A DNA stretch of 64,000 nt from Methylococcaceae bacterium. GTDB lineage: Bacteria > Pseudomonadota > Gammaproteobacteria > Methylococcales > Methylococcaceae. Under the pieces are notes generated by a model. That model did no database searches, had not been told where the DNA came from, and worked only from the letters and a program-made list of their open reading frames with translations. The stretch covers positions 1 through 64,000 of the forward strand of contig SCQD01000044.1 of assembly GCA_004299145.1 (NCBI GenBank), in the 5' to 3' direction. Positions 6,472 through 50,985 of the stretch are shown piece by piece (the first letter of the stretch is position 1; every line of letters begins with the position of its first letter). The translations under genes were made by a program, and so were the position numbers.

Positions 6472-6504
6472 GCTTTGCGTGGCTTTATCAACGCCGGACT
6501 CTCT

Positions 6505-8031
6505 ATGACCCACCCGTTCGAACTGCCCTGGTCCGCTTATAGCGCCGTACCGCTGTTGAGCCTGCTGCTGTGGTTGCCCGCCTTGGGCGCCGTCGCGGTC
6601 TACCGCCTGGCGCAAGATGACCGGCGCGCTTATCGCTGGGCCCTGGGCATTGCATCGGCCAGCCTGGTGGCCATGGCGCAGCTGCTGCTGGGTTTCGACG
6701 ACGCACACCAGGGCATGCAGTTTGCCGAACACCTGGGTGGCGGTTGGCTGAATTACCACTTGGGGGTGGACGGCGTTTCGTTGCTGTTTCTACCGCTGAC
6801 GGCCGGCCTGGCCTGGCTGGCGCTGCTGCAAGGCTACAGCGGCGGCCAGGTGCCGCCGTACCGCTACAGCGCCGCCGTGCTGGCTTATCAGGCGGTGTTG
6901 ACCGGCTTGCTGGTGAGCCAGGACATGCTGCTGTTCTGGCTGTTTGCGGCGGCGGAAACCGCCATCGCCTTGCGCTTGTTGTGGCGCTGGCGCATCGGCG
7001 CGGACTCGGCCATGGTGCGCGCCACGCAAATGCTGGGCGCCGCCGCGGTCTTGCTGTTGCTGGCCGTGTTGCTGCTGGGCTGGCGCCAGGCGGAAAACAC
7101 CGGCGTCTGGTCGTTCGACTGGGCGGATTTGGCGAGGGCATTTAACAGCGGCTCCAACCCAGCCGGCGAACAATCCGCCGTTTTGTTTTTGCTGCTGTTT
7201 GCCGTGGGCCTGCGCATGGCCTTATTTCCCCTGCACGGCTGGCTGGCGCCGGTGCTGCAACATTCCGGGCTGCTGTCGGTGGCACCGGTGTTTCTGGTCG
7301 GCGTCAAAACCGGCGTGTACGTATTGCTGCGCTGGGTGGTGCCGGTATTGCCGCAAGCGCTGAATCATTGGGATGCCTATCTGGTGCCGGTGGCCGTGGT
7401 GGGCGTGTTTTACGGCGCGCTGCTGGCCTTGGTGCAGATCCACCTGGGGCGGTTGCTGGCGTTTGCGGTGGTCAGCCACAGTTCCGTCTTGCTGCTGGGG
7501 GTATTGACGCTGGATAGGGAGGGCTTGGCCGGCACGTTGCTCATGACCATCGACACCGGCATCGCCGGCGCGGCCTTGTTGCTGGTCAGCGGGCAGATCC
7601 AGCGCCGCACCGGCACTGTGCTGCTGCCGCGCCTGGGCGGTCTGCAAGACCCCCTGCCCGCACTGGGGCTGACGTTCATGGTGGCGTCGCTGACCTTGAT
7701 GGCGATGCCCGGCACCCCCGGCTTCGATGCCGCGCATTTGCTGCTGGAAGGCGCGCTGGAAGTGCACGAATGGGGCGTGGCCCTGGCTTTGGCGTTCGGC
7801 ACCGTGCTCACCGCCGGTTTTTTGCTGTGGGCGTTTCAGCGCATTTTTCTGGGCCATGCCCACGGCATCCGCCACGCTGCGATAGCGCCGGTCACCGTCA
7901 CCGAAGGGGTAATGGCGGCGCTGCTGTCGGTTTCGCTACTGGCCGGGTTTTATACCCACCCCTGGCTGGAACTGATCGACGCCAACCTGCCGGGCTTGTT
8001 GCGGGATTATCCCGCGCCGGAGGATCGTTGA
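6505..8031 (+). CDS. NuoM/MrpD-like proton-conducting membrane subunit
   Basis: ATG at 6505 (ORF track extends to TTG 6475); 'LNYHLGVDGVSLLFLPLTAGLAW', 'FPLHGWLAPVLQHSGLLSVAPVFLVGVKTGVYVLLRWVVP'. Confidence 0.85.
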   Translation: MTHPFELPWSAYSAVPLLSLLLWLPALGAVAVYRLAQDDRRAYRWALGIASASLVAMAQLLLGFDDAHQGMQFAEHLGGGWLNYHLGVDGVSLLFLPLTAGLAWLALLQGYSGGQVPPYRYSAAVLAYQAVLTGLLVSQDMLLFWLFAAAETAIALRLLWRWRIGADSAMVRATQMLGAAAVLLLLAVLLLGWRQAENTGVWSFDWADLARAFNSGSNPAGEQSAVLFLLLFAVGLRMALFPLHGWLAPVLQHSGLLSVAPVFLVGVKTGVYVLLRWVVPVLPQALNHWDAYLVPVAVVGVFYGALLALVQIHLGRLLAFAVVSHSSVLLLGVLTLDREGLAGTLLMTIDTGIAGAALLLVSGQIQRRTGTVLLPRLGGLQDPLPALGLTFMVASLTLMAMPGTPGFDAAHLLLEGALEVHEWGVALALAFGTVLTAGFLLWAFQRIFLGHAHGIRHAAIAPVTVTEGVMAALLSVSLLAGFYTHPWLELIDANLPGLLRDYPAPEDR

Positions 8032-8033
8032 TC

Positions 8034-9566
8034 ATGCCTGCTATTGATTTCCCCATCCTGACCACGCTGATACTGCTGCCCTTGCTGGGCAGCGTGCCGG
8101 CTTTGCTCAGCCGCCCCGCCATCGCCTATAAAATCGCCATGGTCATTGGTTGCGTGGAGTTGCTGTTGAGCCTGGTTCCTTTACTGGAGCTGGACGCCGG
8201 CAATCCCAACCCACAACTGCTGGAACGCTATGCCTGGATACCGTCCTTGCACGCCGATTTTCTGCTGGGCGTGGACGGCATTTCCGCGCTGTTTCTGCCG
8301 CTGTCCGCGCTGCTGGGATTGATGGCCGTAGCGGCGTCGCGGCACGCCGTGTCCCAGCAGGCGGCGCTGTATTACGCCCTGCTGCTGGCCTTGCAAGGCA
8401 TCACCCAGGGCGTGTTCTGCGCGCTGGATTTGCTGGCGTTTTTTCTGTTTTGGGAACTGACGCTGGTGCCTTTGTACTTTTTGATCAGCCTGTGGGGCAT
8501 CGGGCCGCAGCGCCGCTTCGCCGCCAGCCAATACGTGCTGCTGATGCTGGCCGGCGGCGTGCCGCTGCTGTTCGCCATCCTGCTGCTGGCGCTCAACCAT
8601 GCCGAAGCGCACGGCCTGACGGCCATGGCGGGGCTGTCGTTCGATTACCTGGAACTGCTGGAAACGCCCATGCCGGCGTCGTTGCAGAGCACGGTATTTT
8701 TATTGCTGTTGGCGGGTTTCGCCGTCAAAGCGCCGCTGTTTCCGTTCCATGTCTGGCTGCCGCGCGTCAGCATGGAAGGCCCGGCGGCGGTCAGCGCTTT
8801 GCTGGTTGGCTTGAAGCTGGGTGCTTATGGACTGCTGCGTTTCGCCATTCCGCTGGCGCCGCTGGGCGCGCAGCAGCACATGCACTGGCTGAGCCTTGCG
8901 GCGGCTTTGGGCATTATTTACGGTGCGCTGCTGGCGCTGGCGCAGACCAATCTGCGGCGGATGCTGGCTTTTGCCGGCATCAGCCACGTGGGCTACGTGG
9001 TGCTGGGGCTGAGCGCCCTCAACCTCCAGGGTGCGCAAGGCGCCCTGCTGCAACTGCTCGGCTTCACGGTGACGGCGGCCGGCTTGTTCCTGCTGACGGG
9101 ATTTTTGCACCAGCGCACCGGCACCACGGAACTCGCCAGCCTGGGCGGCCTGGCGCAAACCATGCCGCGTTTCGCCACGCTGTTTTTCATCCTGGGACTG
9201 TCCAGCATGGGCGTGCCCGGCACCCAGGGCTTTGCCGCCGAATATTTGATCGTGCTGGGCGCGTTGCGCGCCGACATCGGTCTGGGTTTTATTGCGCTGG
9301 TGGGTACGATTTTAGGCGCAGCCTATTTTCTGGGGGCTTGCCGCCGCGCCCTGTTCGGGCCGTTGCGCAACCGCCTGGTGATGGAACTGGCCGATTTGCG
9401 TCCCGGCGAGTTGCGCATCGCCGTGACGCTGGTGCTGTTGGCCTTGCTGGGCGGCTTGTTCCCCCAAGTACTGCTGGACATCAATGCGAGCGCTTTGCAG
9501 CAGTGGGTAAAGCGCAATTGCCCGGCGGCATTAAATGTTCCGCCATTGACAAGGGTAAACGACTGA
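8034..9566 (+). CDS. NuoM-like proton-conducting membrane subunit
   Basis: ATG at 8034, 2 bp after previous stop; 'ADFLLGVDGISALFLPLSALLGLMAV', 'FPFHVWLPRVSMEGPAAVSALLVGLKLGAYGLLRFAIPLAP'. Confidence 0.9.
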   Translation: MPAIDFPILTTLILLPLLGSVPALLSRPAIAYKIAMVIGCVELLLSLVPLLELDAGNPNPQLLERYAWIPSLHADFLLGVDGISALFLPLSALLGLMAVAASRHAVSQQAALYYALLLALQGITQGVFCALDLLAFFLFWELTLVPLYFLISLWGIGPQRRFAASQYVLLMLAGGVPLLFAILLLALNHAEAHGLTAMAGLSFDYLELLETPMPASLQSTVFLLLLAGFAVKAPLFPFHVWLPRVSMEGPAAVSALLVGLKLGAYGLLRFAIPLAPLGAQQHMHWLSLAAALGIIYGALLALAQTNLRRMLAFAGISHVGYVVLGLSALNLQGAQGALLQLLGFTVTAAGLFLLTGFLHQRTGTTELASLGGLAQTMPRFATLFFILGLSSMGVPGTQGFAAEYLIVLGALRADIGLGFIALVGTILGAAYFLGACRRALFGPLRNRLVMELADLRPGELRIAVTLVLLALLGGLFPQVLLDINASALQQWVKRNCPAALNVPPLTRVND

Positions 9567-34081: not shown

Positions 34082-35257
34082 TTATTGTTTGCTCCCACCA
34101 CTTTTGCTGGTGAGTGCAAGAATGTTGGTAGGATTGCTGCGCATCAGCCGGGATTTTTCCCGTTGCCGTTTCAGAGCCAGTTCTACTAATTTTTTAATTA
34201 AAGCCGCAAAAGTAATCCCGGAAGGCTGCCAAAGATAAAAGGACATGGAGCCGGGAATTGCGTTGATTTCATTCACATAGACCTGACGTGCGGTACGATC
34301 GACGAGAAAATCGATGCGTGCAACGCCACAGGCGCCAACAGCCAAAAAGGTTTGGCGCGCAAGATTTTGAATAGTACGGCTAAGGTCCTCGTCGATTTCG
34401 GCAGGGATTTTACGCAAAGCCGATTGCATGCCTTTGGCCCCGCTGCTTTTGGACTGATATTTATCGGCGAACGAAAGAAAATCGGCAGAACGTAAGGGTT
34501 CCTCGCAAACCGAGGCGGAAGTTTCGTCGCCATCACCCATAACTGCACAATTAATCTCAAGCAGATTGGGTACTAATTTTTCAACGATGATACGATCAGC
34601 GAATGACGCCGCCAGATCGATAGCATCATCGATATCGTTTTCGGACTGCACGACAGTGACGCCTATACTGGAACCCAGATTGGCGGGTTTGACGATGGCC
34701 GGGAAACCGATGCGTAGCTGAACGTCATCTTTAAATGCATCGGACTGGCTGAACCAGGCCTTATTGGACATCCATAGATAGTCCACCATGGGTAGACCAT
34801 ATTGGCGGCAGATTTCCTTGAAGCGAATTTTATCCATGCCGAGCGCTGAAGCGGTTACGTCACAGCCCACATAAGGAATGCCATACATTTCGAGCATCCC
34901 CTGCAAACAGCCATCCTCGCCGAAGGTGCCGTGGGTTACCGGGAAGGCAACGTCGATACTGTCGATGAGGTTGCGGCGAAACGGCGAAGCAGGGTAACGC
35001 TGCAATAAAAGTTGCTCATTATGGCCTATGGGAACAACGCGCGTGCAGTGGCGCATCACCGAATCCAGGTTCCGGTAATTATCTATTTCCAACAAATCGG
35101 CACCGCTAAACCAGTGGCCTTCCTTGGAGATATAGACAGGCACAACGCGAAAGAAAGTTGAATCGACGGCGTTTATTACTTGCAACGCCGACAAAATCGA
35201 AATTTCGTGTTCGACGGAGCGGCCACCAAAAAGTACACCCAGGCTGATTTTCATCAT
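34082..35257 (-). CDS. D-alanine--D-alanine ligase family protein
   Basis: 'LGVLFGGRSVEHEISILSALQV', 'FPVTHGTFGEDGCLQGMLEMYGIPYVGCDV', 'VNEINAIPGSMSFYLW'; 'FADKYQSKSSGAKGMQS' in the omega-loop region. Confidence 0.93.
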   Translation of the reverse strand: MMKISLGVLFGGRSVEHEISILSALQVINAVDSTFFRVVPVYISKEGHWFSGADLLEIDNYRNLDSVMRHCTRVVPIGHNEQLLLQRYPASPFRRNLIDSIDVAFPVTHGTFGEDGCLQGMLEMYGIPYVGCDVTASALGMDKIRFKEICRQYGLPMVDYLWMSNKAWFSQSDAFKDDVQLRIGFPAIVKPANLGSSIGVTVVQSENDIDDAIDLAASFADRIIVEKLVPNLLEINCAVMGDGDETSASVCEEPLRSADFLSFADKYQSKSSGAKGMQSALRKIPAEIDEDLSRTIQNLARQTFLAVGACGVARIDFLVDRTARQVYVNEINAIPGSMSFYLWQPSGITFAALIKKLVELALKRQREKSRLMRSNPTNILALTSKSGGSKQ

Positions 35258-35262
35258 ATTGG

Positions 35263-36864
35263 TTAAACTTCGTTATAGGTATCAGGTAAATCATTTTCAT
35301 AAAGGACCACGTCACCCGGGGATATGCGTCCATCCAAATGCGATTGCGCACTTTTCAAATCGGCTGCGATATAAACCTGATCGGCAGGAAAGCCGGCTTC
35401 CGTCAGGCCCACCAAAATGGGCTCAGCACGCTTAGGCCCAACGAGGATAATGTAATCACAGACACCGGCAGCCTGAGCACCGAATGCTTTATTCAAGGCA
35501 AACTCCCGCTCGCCCAGCTCGACCATCCCAGGCGTCAGCAGAAATTTACGGTTGCCGTCAAAAGTAGCCAATACGTCCAAGGCATATTTGGCGCCAAGCG
35601 GATTGGAACTGAAAGCATCGTCCAAAATAGTTATGCCGGTAGTAGTTCGCTTGATTTCCAACCGATGCGGCGCGCAGGGCAGCGCCGCGACGGCAGGCGC
35701 CAAAACGGATGCAGGAATGCCGAGTTCATGACTGACTGCAATGGCGGCAAGGATGTTATAGACATTATGTTTGCCCAGCAGGCGGGCATGAAACCGGTAA
35801 TTGATGTTCTGGGGCATGAGCACGGTGAATTCGGTGCCCTTAGCGCTATAAACGATATCGGTTGCGCGATAATCCGCATCCAAAGTATCAATGCCATAGC
35901 TGATGTAGCGTGGGCCAATCGGCTTGGCGGATTGATGCAGCATGACGTCATCCAGATTGAAAAAAGCCATGCCATTGCTGGCAAGACCGGTAAAAAGCTC
36001 AAGTTTGGTGGCGGTAACGGCATCGATACTGCCAAAAGTTTCCAGGTGCTGTTCACCGATGGCTGTAATAATCCCGATTTTAGGAGCCACCAAATCACAA
36101 AGCTCTTTGATATCTCCAGGTTGCCGGGCTCCCATCTCAACGATAAAAAGCTCGTGAACGGGGCGCAGCATAGTGCGGATGACACGGACCACACCCATGG
36201 TCGTGTTATAGCTGAGGGGGGTCGCCAAGGAATTAAACCGGGTAGACAACAATTGATTAAGAACCAGTTTGGTAGAGGTTTTACCATAACTACCCGTAAT
36301 GCCGATGACCGGCAAATCCACGTGTTTGGCAAGAATCAGCTTGGCATCGTAGTAATAAAAACGGCTGATAGTCCATTCCAAGGGCAAGACCAAGGCATTG
36401 CTCAGCAATAAAAGTACAGGCGAAAAGCACCCCAACACAACTAAAGCAAACAGCAGATAAAAGCCGGCAGGTAGCGAGAATGCAAAACAAGCCGGCAAAA
36501 ATTCATGGGATAAAACGGCGCTAAATCCAAATAAAGCCGCATGGGCGCAAAGTAAGCGGATGACGCGCGGGGTAAAGGCCAGCTTCAACTTTGCAGGTGG
36601 GCGAGAATAAGTGGCAAACAGTGTGGGATAGAGCACACACCAAGCAGCCAGGGCGGCAATAGGCTTAAAGACAAACAGAGCCAAAGGCAAAAAACCCAAA
36701 ACCTGGCGCAAGTGCAAAAAACGCCGAAAGTCTTGACTCAACCAACGAACATAGCGCAAAGACCGGTAACTGTTTTGCTGAAGCATATGCACATCGTGCA
36801 AAACATCGGCATGAACGCCTAATGTGTAGTTGAAAACGGCGAGAATGATTTGATGTATGGGCAT
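35263..36864 (-). CDS. Mur ligase family protein (MurF-like catalytic and C-terminal domains fused to an N-terminal multi-TM region)
   Basis: About 190 aa hydrophobic N-terminus, then 'VDLPVIGITGSYGKTSTKLVLNQLLSTRFN' P-loop, 'IVEMGARQPGDIKELCDLVAPKIGIITAIGEQHLETFGS', 'TGITILDDAFSSNPLGAKYALDVLA'. Confidence 0.9.
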   Translation of the reverse strand: MPIHQIILAVFNYTLGVHADVLHDVHMLQQNSYRSLRYVRWLSQDFRRFLHLRQVLGFLPLALFVFKPIAALAAWCVLYPTLFATYSRPPAKLKLAFTPRVIRLLCAHAALFGFSAVLSHEFLPACFAFSLPAGFYLLFALVVLGCFSPVLLLLSNALVLPLEWTISRFYYYDAKLILAKHVDLPVIGITGSYGKTSTKLVLNQLLSTRFNSLATPLSYNTTMGVVRVIRTMLRPVHELFIVEMGARQPGDIKELCDLVAPKIGIITAIGEQHLETFGSIDAVTATKLELFTGLASNGMAFFNLDDVMLHQSAKPIGPRYISYGIDTLDADYRATDIVYSAKGTEFTVLMPQNINYRFHARLLGKHNVYNILAAIAVSHELGIPASVLAPAVAALPCAPHRLEIKRTTTGITILDDAFSSNPLGAKYALDVLATFDGNRKFLLTPGMVELGEREFALNKAFGAQAAGVCDYIILVGPKRAEPILVGLTEAGFPADQVYIAADLKSAQSHLDGRISPGDVVLYENDLPDTYNEV

Positions 36865-36867
36865 GAA

Positions 36868-37638
36868 TTAATGGCTAAGAAAATGATTCACGATAGTATA
36901 AAACTCCTGGGGTTTATCCAGGTAGCAATAATGGCCGGCATTTTTCAACACGACCAAGCCGGAGTCAGGAATACGCTTTTCCATGATTTTGGCTTGATAT
37001 AAAGGCGTGGTCTGGTCGCTATCGCCCCACATTAAAAGGGTAGGTACTTTGATTTGTGGCAAAAGAGGAGAAAGATCTTCGTTAACGACTTTAACCAGTA
37101 TTTGCCGCAATAATGGAGCGGCATTGCGGTAATCGCTGGAGCCAAATTGTTGCTGCAACCGCTCGAGCAAACGCGCTTGCAATTGAGCGGGCAAAATTCT
37201 CAAACAGAATTTTGCCGATTTATAACAGTAAACTTTACAGTAATAAATCAAAGATTTTTTGCTGGGTACGCCGGCACTGTTGACCAGAATCAACTTGCCT
37301 GCAATTCCCCTGGAGCCTAATACGATGGAAATGCGGCCACCGAAAGAATGGCCAATCAATACAGGGTGAGCGAGATTCAAAAACTTTAAAAAATGCTCGA
37401 CCAAATGACAGTAATCAAACAGCGACCATGCGCCAGGGGGAGCTGCACTGCTACCAAAACCCGGTAAGTCGAGGGAAATTACGCGAAACCCAGCGGACAG
37501 ATCACGTTCAAGCCGGCTAAAACTGGAAATTTCACTGCCCCATCCATGCAGCAAAACCACGGGCAAGCCATTCCCGACGTCGCGGTAATTTAATAAAACT
37601 CCATCAATAGTGGCCGATTTTTGAGGCATAGAAAACAA
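36868..37638 (-). CDS. Alpha/beta-fold hydrolase
   Basis: 'PVVLLHGWGSEISSFSRLERDLSAGFRVISLDLPGFGSS', nucleophile elbow 'LIGHSFGGRISI', 'LLMWGDSDQTTPL', 'AGHYCYLDKP'. Confidence 0.92.
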   Translation of the reverse strand: MFSMPQKSATIDGVLLNYRDVGNGLPVVLLHGWGSEISSFSRLERDLSAGFRVISLDLPGFGSSAAPPGAWSLFDYCHLVEHFLKFLNLAHPVLIGHSFGGRISIVLGSRGIAGKLILVNSAGVPSKKSLIYYCKVYCYKSAKFCLRILPAQLQARLLERLQQQFGSSDYRNAAPLLRQILVKVVNEDLSPLLPQIKVPTLLMWGDSDQTTPLYQAKIMEKRIPDSGLVVLKNAGHYCYLDKPQEFYTIVNHFLSH

Positions 37639-50812: not shown

Positions 50813-50985
50813 TAAAAAGTGCCGGATCAGGGGCTCGAACAGGGGTTAAGCATGGGCGGATTTTCCGCCTTTTTCAACGCCGATTTTTGCCCCATCGGCG
50901 AGGGGTTTGGGAGCGCGGTAGCTGTCGCCGTCGAGGACCACACGGTAGGGTACGCACAGCGTACCCTTAGCGGGGATCGTTTGCC

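Follow-up and report, generated by a model that had tools for sequence, protein, structure and literature searches.

MurF and Ddl are usually regarded as conserved cytosolic enzymes encoded in the division and cell wall (dcw) cluster, and as drug targets. In solved MurF structures, domain 1 binds the uridine diphosphate (UDP) part of the substrate, and MurT, a Mur ligase relative that is a subunit of the lipid II isoglutaminyl synthase, acts on a lipid-linked precursor. The genes for Ddl, an EstV-like hydrolase, and MurF are presumably neighbors in Helicobacter pylori. The MurF of this species is described as essential and as present in inner-membrane shape complexes (PMC9448923, PMC9507126), and it is reported to have four membrane helices at its N terminus (PMC9448923, with reference to Blair et al. 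2018); its EstV is reported to be a carboxylesterase acting on short esters (PMC3741291). Given this report on H. pylori MurF, the membrane MurF is an enzyme type that already has precedent. The window analyzed here, a stretch of 64,000 nucleotides from contig SCQD01000044.1 of a Methylococcaceae bacterium (assembly GCA_004299145.1), contains a cassette of three genes, which encode an alpha/beta hydrolase, a MurF-like ligase fused to a membrane domain (TM-MurF), and a Ddl. Very probably, this cassette entered a gammaproteobacterial methanotroph by horizontal transfer and, sufficient on its own, took the place of the essential canonical murF and ddl genes. A literature search, thin on subscription journals, found no description of the cassette, of its exclusion of canonical MurF, or of the double loss from the dcw cluster.

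Sole copies and dcw losses in the host genome

The host is likely a gammaproteobacterial methanotroph, as its GyrB is about 65% identical to those of Aeromonas and Escherichia coli, and its genome contains two pmoA/amoA-family genes (G000:C197:8861-9571 and G000:C203:3661-4365). The assembly comprises 4.64 Mb in 353 contigs, with a completeness of 100% and a contamination of 0.93%. It encodes five Mur ligase proteins, namely, MurE, MurD, MurC, Mpl, and TM-MurF. The first four each score above their curated cut-offs (MurE, TIGR01085, 489 bits), and a genome-wide profile search retrieved no protein that reaches the curated MurF cut-off. The genome also contains no second strong Ddl; the Ddl of the window scores 161.6 bits, and the two other matches, at 39.7 and 33.4 bits, are taken as other ATP-grasp proteins.

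The dcw cluster of the host (contig C79, locus L006) has the order ftsI-murE-mraY-murD-ftsW-murG-murC-murB-ftsQ-ftsA-ftsZ. The genes murE and mraY are 2 bp apart without murF, murB and ftsQ adjoin without ddl, and both junctions lie on one contig. A genome of the same genus (G001) and two other members of the family present murE-murF-mraY and murB-ddl-ftsQ at these places, and the MurF and DdlB of G001, at 429 and 403 bits, are both canonical. The murB-ftsQ scar holds an inverted repeat and other sequence absent from the G001 arrangement. This repeat, GTAGGGTACGCTGTG...CACAGCGTACCCTAC (about 3850 to 4080 of L006), is read through in the extended ftsQ open reading frame (ORF), and a 19-bp match lies at 50949 to 50967 of the window.

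Judged from gene content, TM-MurF would be the cell's sole source of MurF-like function. The preliminary description of this locus had proposed an accessory system. This reading is not supported for the host, because its genome, checked for a separate murF or ddl, contains neither, and the cassette would be the essential copy.

Distribution of the cassette and exclusion of canonical MurF

The membrane domain of TM-MurF alone served as a search profile (A3). An intact match was found in 1 of 311 genomes of the order (50 genera), that of the host, and the best match in 60 relatives is a canonical MurF that aligns from about residue 180 onward. Among sampled genomes of the class, 7 of 369 matched the profile, as did 23 of 399 from the phylum to which Evansella belongs. 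A contig scan retrieved full-length homologues with 36 to 46% identity in Evansella, Gracilibacillus, Aquibacillus, many uncultured Bacilli, Scalindua, and a gammaproteobacterial metagenome-assembled genome (MAG). The cassette recurs in Bacillota, one planctomycete, and a few other gammaproteobacteria.

Canonical MurF above the curated cut-off is missing from 51 of the 56 TM-MurF genomes that were searched for it (28 plus 27 plus the host). The six other carriers within the class, each with a completeness of at least 90%, all lack a MurF above this cut-off. Two class members (G183 and G401, loci L193 and L194) present the order ftsI-murE-[hydrolase-MurF-Ddl]-mraY, with the cassette exactly in the canonical murF slot. 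Mutual exclusion, placement in the dcw slot, and the dcw losses of the host together constitute strong genetic evidence that the cassette performs the MurF and Ddl steps.

In other genomes, the hydrolase gene lies directly upstream of TM-MurF at 79 of 86 informative loci, and ddl lies directly downstream at 79 of 89. Since these neighbors recur at most informative loci, the grouping is not due to chance, and this co-occurrence survey supports the view that TM-MurF and Ddl are a co-inherited unit. The two genomes with the clean in-slot replacement are small (1.0 to 1.9 Mb). Three deeply diverged TM-MurFs on long branches (L169, L170, and L171, in G339, G204, and G218) all have the hydrolase upstream, and in none of the three is TM-MurF immediately followed by a Ddl in the same orientation; G218 has a Ddl upstream, in divergent orientation. 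In a Tenericutes MAG (L080, 5914 to 8896), a MurE-like gene directly follows TM-MurF in place of Ddl.

TM-MurF and canonical MurF form reciprocal clades with support of 100/100. The Ddl of the window is 46 to 49% identical to the cassette Ddls of Bacillaceae but only 30% identical to DdlB of G001, and a joint transfer of MurF and Ddl is therefore most likely. The TM-MurF of the window has no well-supported sister, and its highest identity, 54%, is to a class member. The best tree implies three changes for the acquisition by gammaproteobacteria, whereas a single gammaproteobacterial clade is not rejected by the approximately unbiased test (p-AU, 0.29), so that the tree is compatible with one transfer or several. 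Plasmid or viral carriage was considered and set aside, as no plasmid record covers 80% of TM-MurF and no relative was found on a viral contig. Foreign base composition is a weak signal of transfer here, with a guanine-plus-cytosine content of 45 to 50% in the cassette and of 48 to 52% in the origin-proximal neighbor genes, which are about as low.

Architecture of the cassette proteins

The ORF calls agree with the earlier description of three tightly packed minus-strand genes, with spacers of 3 and 5 bp, and give the transcription order hydrolase, TM-MurF, Ddl (Table 1). The hydrolase starts at a TTG codon or at an ATG three codons later.

Table 1. Positions of the cassette genes and of their domains and motifs in the window
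Feature	Position	Strand	Description and basis
Alpha/beta hydrolase, cassette gene 1 (lipase family V/EstV-like)	36868..37638	-	256 amino acids (aa); Pfam/NCBIfam, conserved triad
TM-MurF	35263..36864	-	533 aa; Pfam/NCBIfam, AlphaFold2 model, fold matches
N-terminal membrane domain of TM-MurF, aa 1-185	36310..36864	-	Hydrophobicity, alignment, AlphaFold2; stands in place of MurF domain 1
Predicted cytosol-side motif HMLQxN-x-Y-x3-R-Y-x2-W, aa 26-41	36742..36789	-	Alignment; Q29, Y33, R37, W41 invariant
Predicted basic cytosolic loop, family consensus KKxLxxTxRxKRLxxT, aa 92-107	36544..36591	-	K92, T98, R100, R103 invariant; K+R 3.9 per 10 aa
Mur ligase central (ATPase) and C-terminal domains of TM-MurF	35266..36309	-	PF08245/PF02875; MurF structure matches
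P-loop GITGSYGKTS, aa 188-197	36274..36303	-	Alignment
Ddl (D-alanine--D-alanine ligase)	34082..35257	-	391 aa; NF002528, TIGR01205 above cut-off; fold match to DdlA structures
Shortened Ddl loop PGSMSFYLW, signature of cassette Ddls	34229..34255	-	Alignment, structure match

TM-MurF contains the Pfam domains Mur_ligase_M (PF08245) and Mur_ligase_C (PF02875), and its best family model is that of MurF (TIGR01143), which aligns only from model position 69. The N-terminal stretch of about 185 residues has no Pfam match and is hydrophobic, with a positive-inside pattern and basic stretches in the predicted cytosolic loops. The AlphaFold2 model is confident (pLDDT, 90; pTM, 0.84) and presents the N terminus as long helices. 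The best Foldseek matches in the PDB are MurF structures, restricted to about 360 C-terminal columns. Given the confident model and this restriction, domain 1 seems to be genuinely missing, and the earlier view of a membrane-fused MurF stands, as no canonical MurF N terminus was found in these comparisons. The residues conserved in the membrane domain (H26 to W41, K92 to T107, and E163) fall on predicted cytosolic stretches, which would fit a role of this domain as an acceptor-binding platform.

The ligase portion retains the MurF-type catalytic residues T190, G191, S192, G194, K195, T196, K199, E243, and H273, as well as K287, N303, H366, N367, N370, R401, D416, N419, and N421. With canonical soluble MurF (TIGR01143; PDB 1gg4, 4cvk, and 4qf5) it shares the central ATPase and C-terminal domains, the P-loop, and the motifs K287/E289, H366-N367-x2-N370, and D416-x2-N419-x-N421-P422. 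It differs in its separate clade, in the membrane domain that takes the place of domain 1, and in several substitutions, namely, T for N at 221 (NT for NN), H for G at 400, TP for LG at 444-445 (TPGM for LGxM), and ENDLPD for KGSRSQ at 523-528. H. pylori MurF is likewise reported to have a multi-helix membrane N terminus. MurT matches TM-MurF weakly (20 to 25 bits), has no membrane domain, and has GatD as a partner.

The Ddl presents the Dala_Dala_lig_N and C domains and exceeds the cut-offs of both NF002528 (327 versus 262 bits) and TIGR01205 (283.6 versus 245.65 bits). The motif E16-H17-E18 is present and K266-Y267 is invariant, which sustains the earlier view that the motifs are compatible with D-Ala-D-Ala specificity. 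The cassette Ddl has both domains, EHE, K-Y, and the ATP-grasp residues in common with the DdlA type (NF002528; PDB 3i12 and 7u56) and with H. pylori Ddl (2pvp). Its substrate loop is about four residues shorter than in DdlA, and H. pylori Ddl, judged from alignment lengths, also aligns without the loop insert.

The hydrolase belongs to Pfam Abhydrolase_1, and its Ser-Asp-His triad is conserved: the Ser lies in the motif GHSFGG, the Asp in WG-x-x-D, and the His in HYxYL. Its best-scoring named family is EstV of lipase family V (NF058580), which includes H. pylori EstV; the triad is shared, yet the score of 129 bits is well below the cut-off of 300. The hydrolase is absent beside TM-MurF at 7 of the 86 informative loci, so that a role as an auxiliary esterase that is not strictly required is only a guess, and nothing was found in support of the earlier proposal that it edits or releases the product.

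Genomic place of the cassette

The gene run dnaA-dnaN-recF-gyrB-lgt-thyA-folA is conserved with G001 (56 to 89% protein identity), and gene order diverges right after folA, where the host has the cassette and G001 has apaH (read by eye from the sequence). The preliminary description had noted gyrB-lgt-thyA-folA beside the cassette as unexpected; the neighborhood is confirmed, with a gene run that is shared with G001 up to folA and a cassette that is new after it. Because the two genomes part company directly after folA, the site near the origin is, on gene order, an insertion or rearrangement breakpoint and not an ancestral location. In the host, apaH adjoins mpl on another contig (apaH sites: L007, 4817 to 5650; L140, after about 8250). 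Two consecutive NADH-quinone oxidoreductase subunit M-like proteins are encoded at 6475 to 9563 of the window, 16 kb before dnaA.

Proposed function and alternative explanations

In the proposed mechanism, Ddl would join two D-Ala molecules using ATP, and TM-MurF, anchored in the membrane at the cytoplasmic face, would attach the resulting D-Ala-D-Ala to the tripeptide of the precursor, again at the expense of ATP. With domain 1 missing, acceptor binding would fall to the membrane domain and its conserved basic cytosolic loops, and this domain would place the last Mur step beside MraY. The acceptor would most likely be UDP-N-acetylmuramic acid (MurNAc)-tripeptide, as usual, and the hydrolase would be an auxiliary partner that is not an absolute requirement.

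Several observations weigh against a replacement of murF and ddl by the cassette. TM-MurF scores 225 bits, below the curated TIGR01143 cut-off of 288.6, which is attributed to the missing domain 1 and to the alteration of some canonical C-terminal motifs (KGSRSQ to ENDLPD and LGxM to TPGM). Many of the comparison genomes, notably those of Bacillota, are MAGs, and a divergent canonical MurF below the cut-off could be missed. Both MurF forms occur in 5 of the 56 genomes (those of L064, L065, and L077, plus G636 and G821), and in these five the cassette could be accessory. As an explanation for the host, an accessory system beside canonical MurF and Ddl, for example, one acting on a non-canonical acceptor, can draw on these five genomes but is scarcely credible and is rejected, given that the host has the cassette as its sole MurF and Ddl and that its dcw slots are closed. 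The draft state of the host assembly also counts against a replacement and could point to an assembly or binning artefact, with a foreign cassette contig or collapsed dcw gaps. Such an artefact is highly improbable, because the cassette sits inside a contig whose dnaA-to-folA run is syntenic to G001, each dcw junction lies within a single contig, completeness is full and contamination low, and a cell minus the cassette would have neither MurF nor Ddl.

Among the explanations that accept the replacement but assign it another chemistry, TM-MurF may act after MraY on lipid-linked MurNAc-tripeptide (lipid I/II), which would reverse the last cytoplasmic steps and add D-Ala-D-Ala at the membrane. 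The presence of a membrane domain, whose basic cytosolic loops are conserved, in place of the UDP-binding domain 1, the clade-specific swaps in otherwise invariant ligase-domain motifs, and the general precedent of MurT, a weak sequence match that works on lipid II, all speak for this order. It is nevertheless considered unlikely, since the ATPase/ligase core residues of UDP-dependent MurF are kept, the MraY of the host is ordinary, and the basic loops could equally bind the UDP group. The shortened loop near the second substrate site (PGSMSFYLW), which differs from DdlA and VanA types, could point instead to a Ddl that produces D-Ala-D-Lac or D-Ala-D-Ser and to a cassette that alters the end of the stem peptide in a manner similar to glycopeptide resistance. 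This is very unlikely, as the best family models are D-Ala-D-Ala ligases, the 2pvp alignment lengths likewise indicate no insert, and a Gram-negative host would gain little; a VanA-type resistance ligase in particular is rejected from the family scores, with Van-type models far below their cut-offs, and from the invariant K-Y motif.

Implications

Replacement of canonical murF and ddl would mean that a movable cassette can swap out MurF and Ddl together, either at another locus, as in this methanotroph, or in the dcw slot itself. It raises the questions of what lets a Mur ligase that lacks domain 1 choose its acceptor and of whether D-Ala-D-Ala addition can proceed at the membrane. Annotation pipelines that rely on the MurF cut-off will label such genomes as lacking murF.

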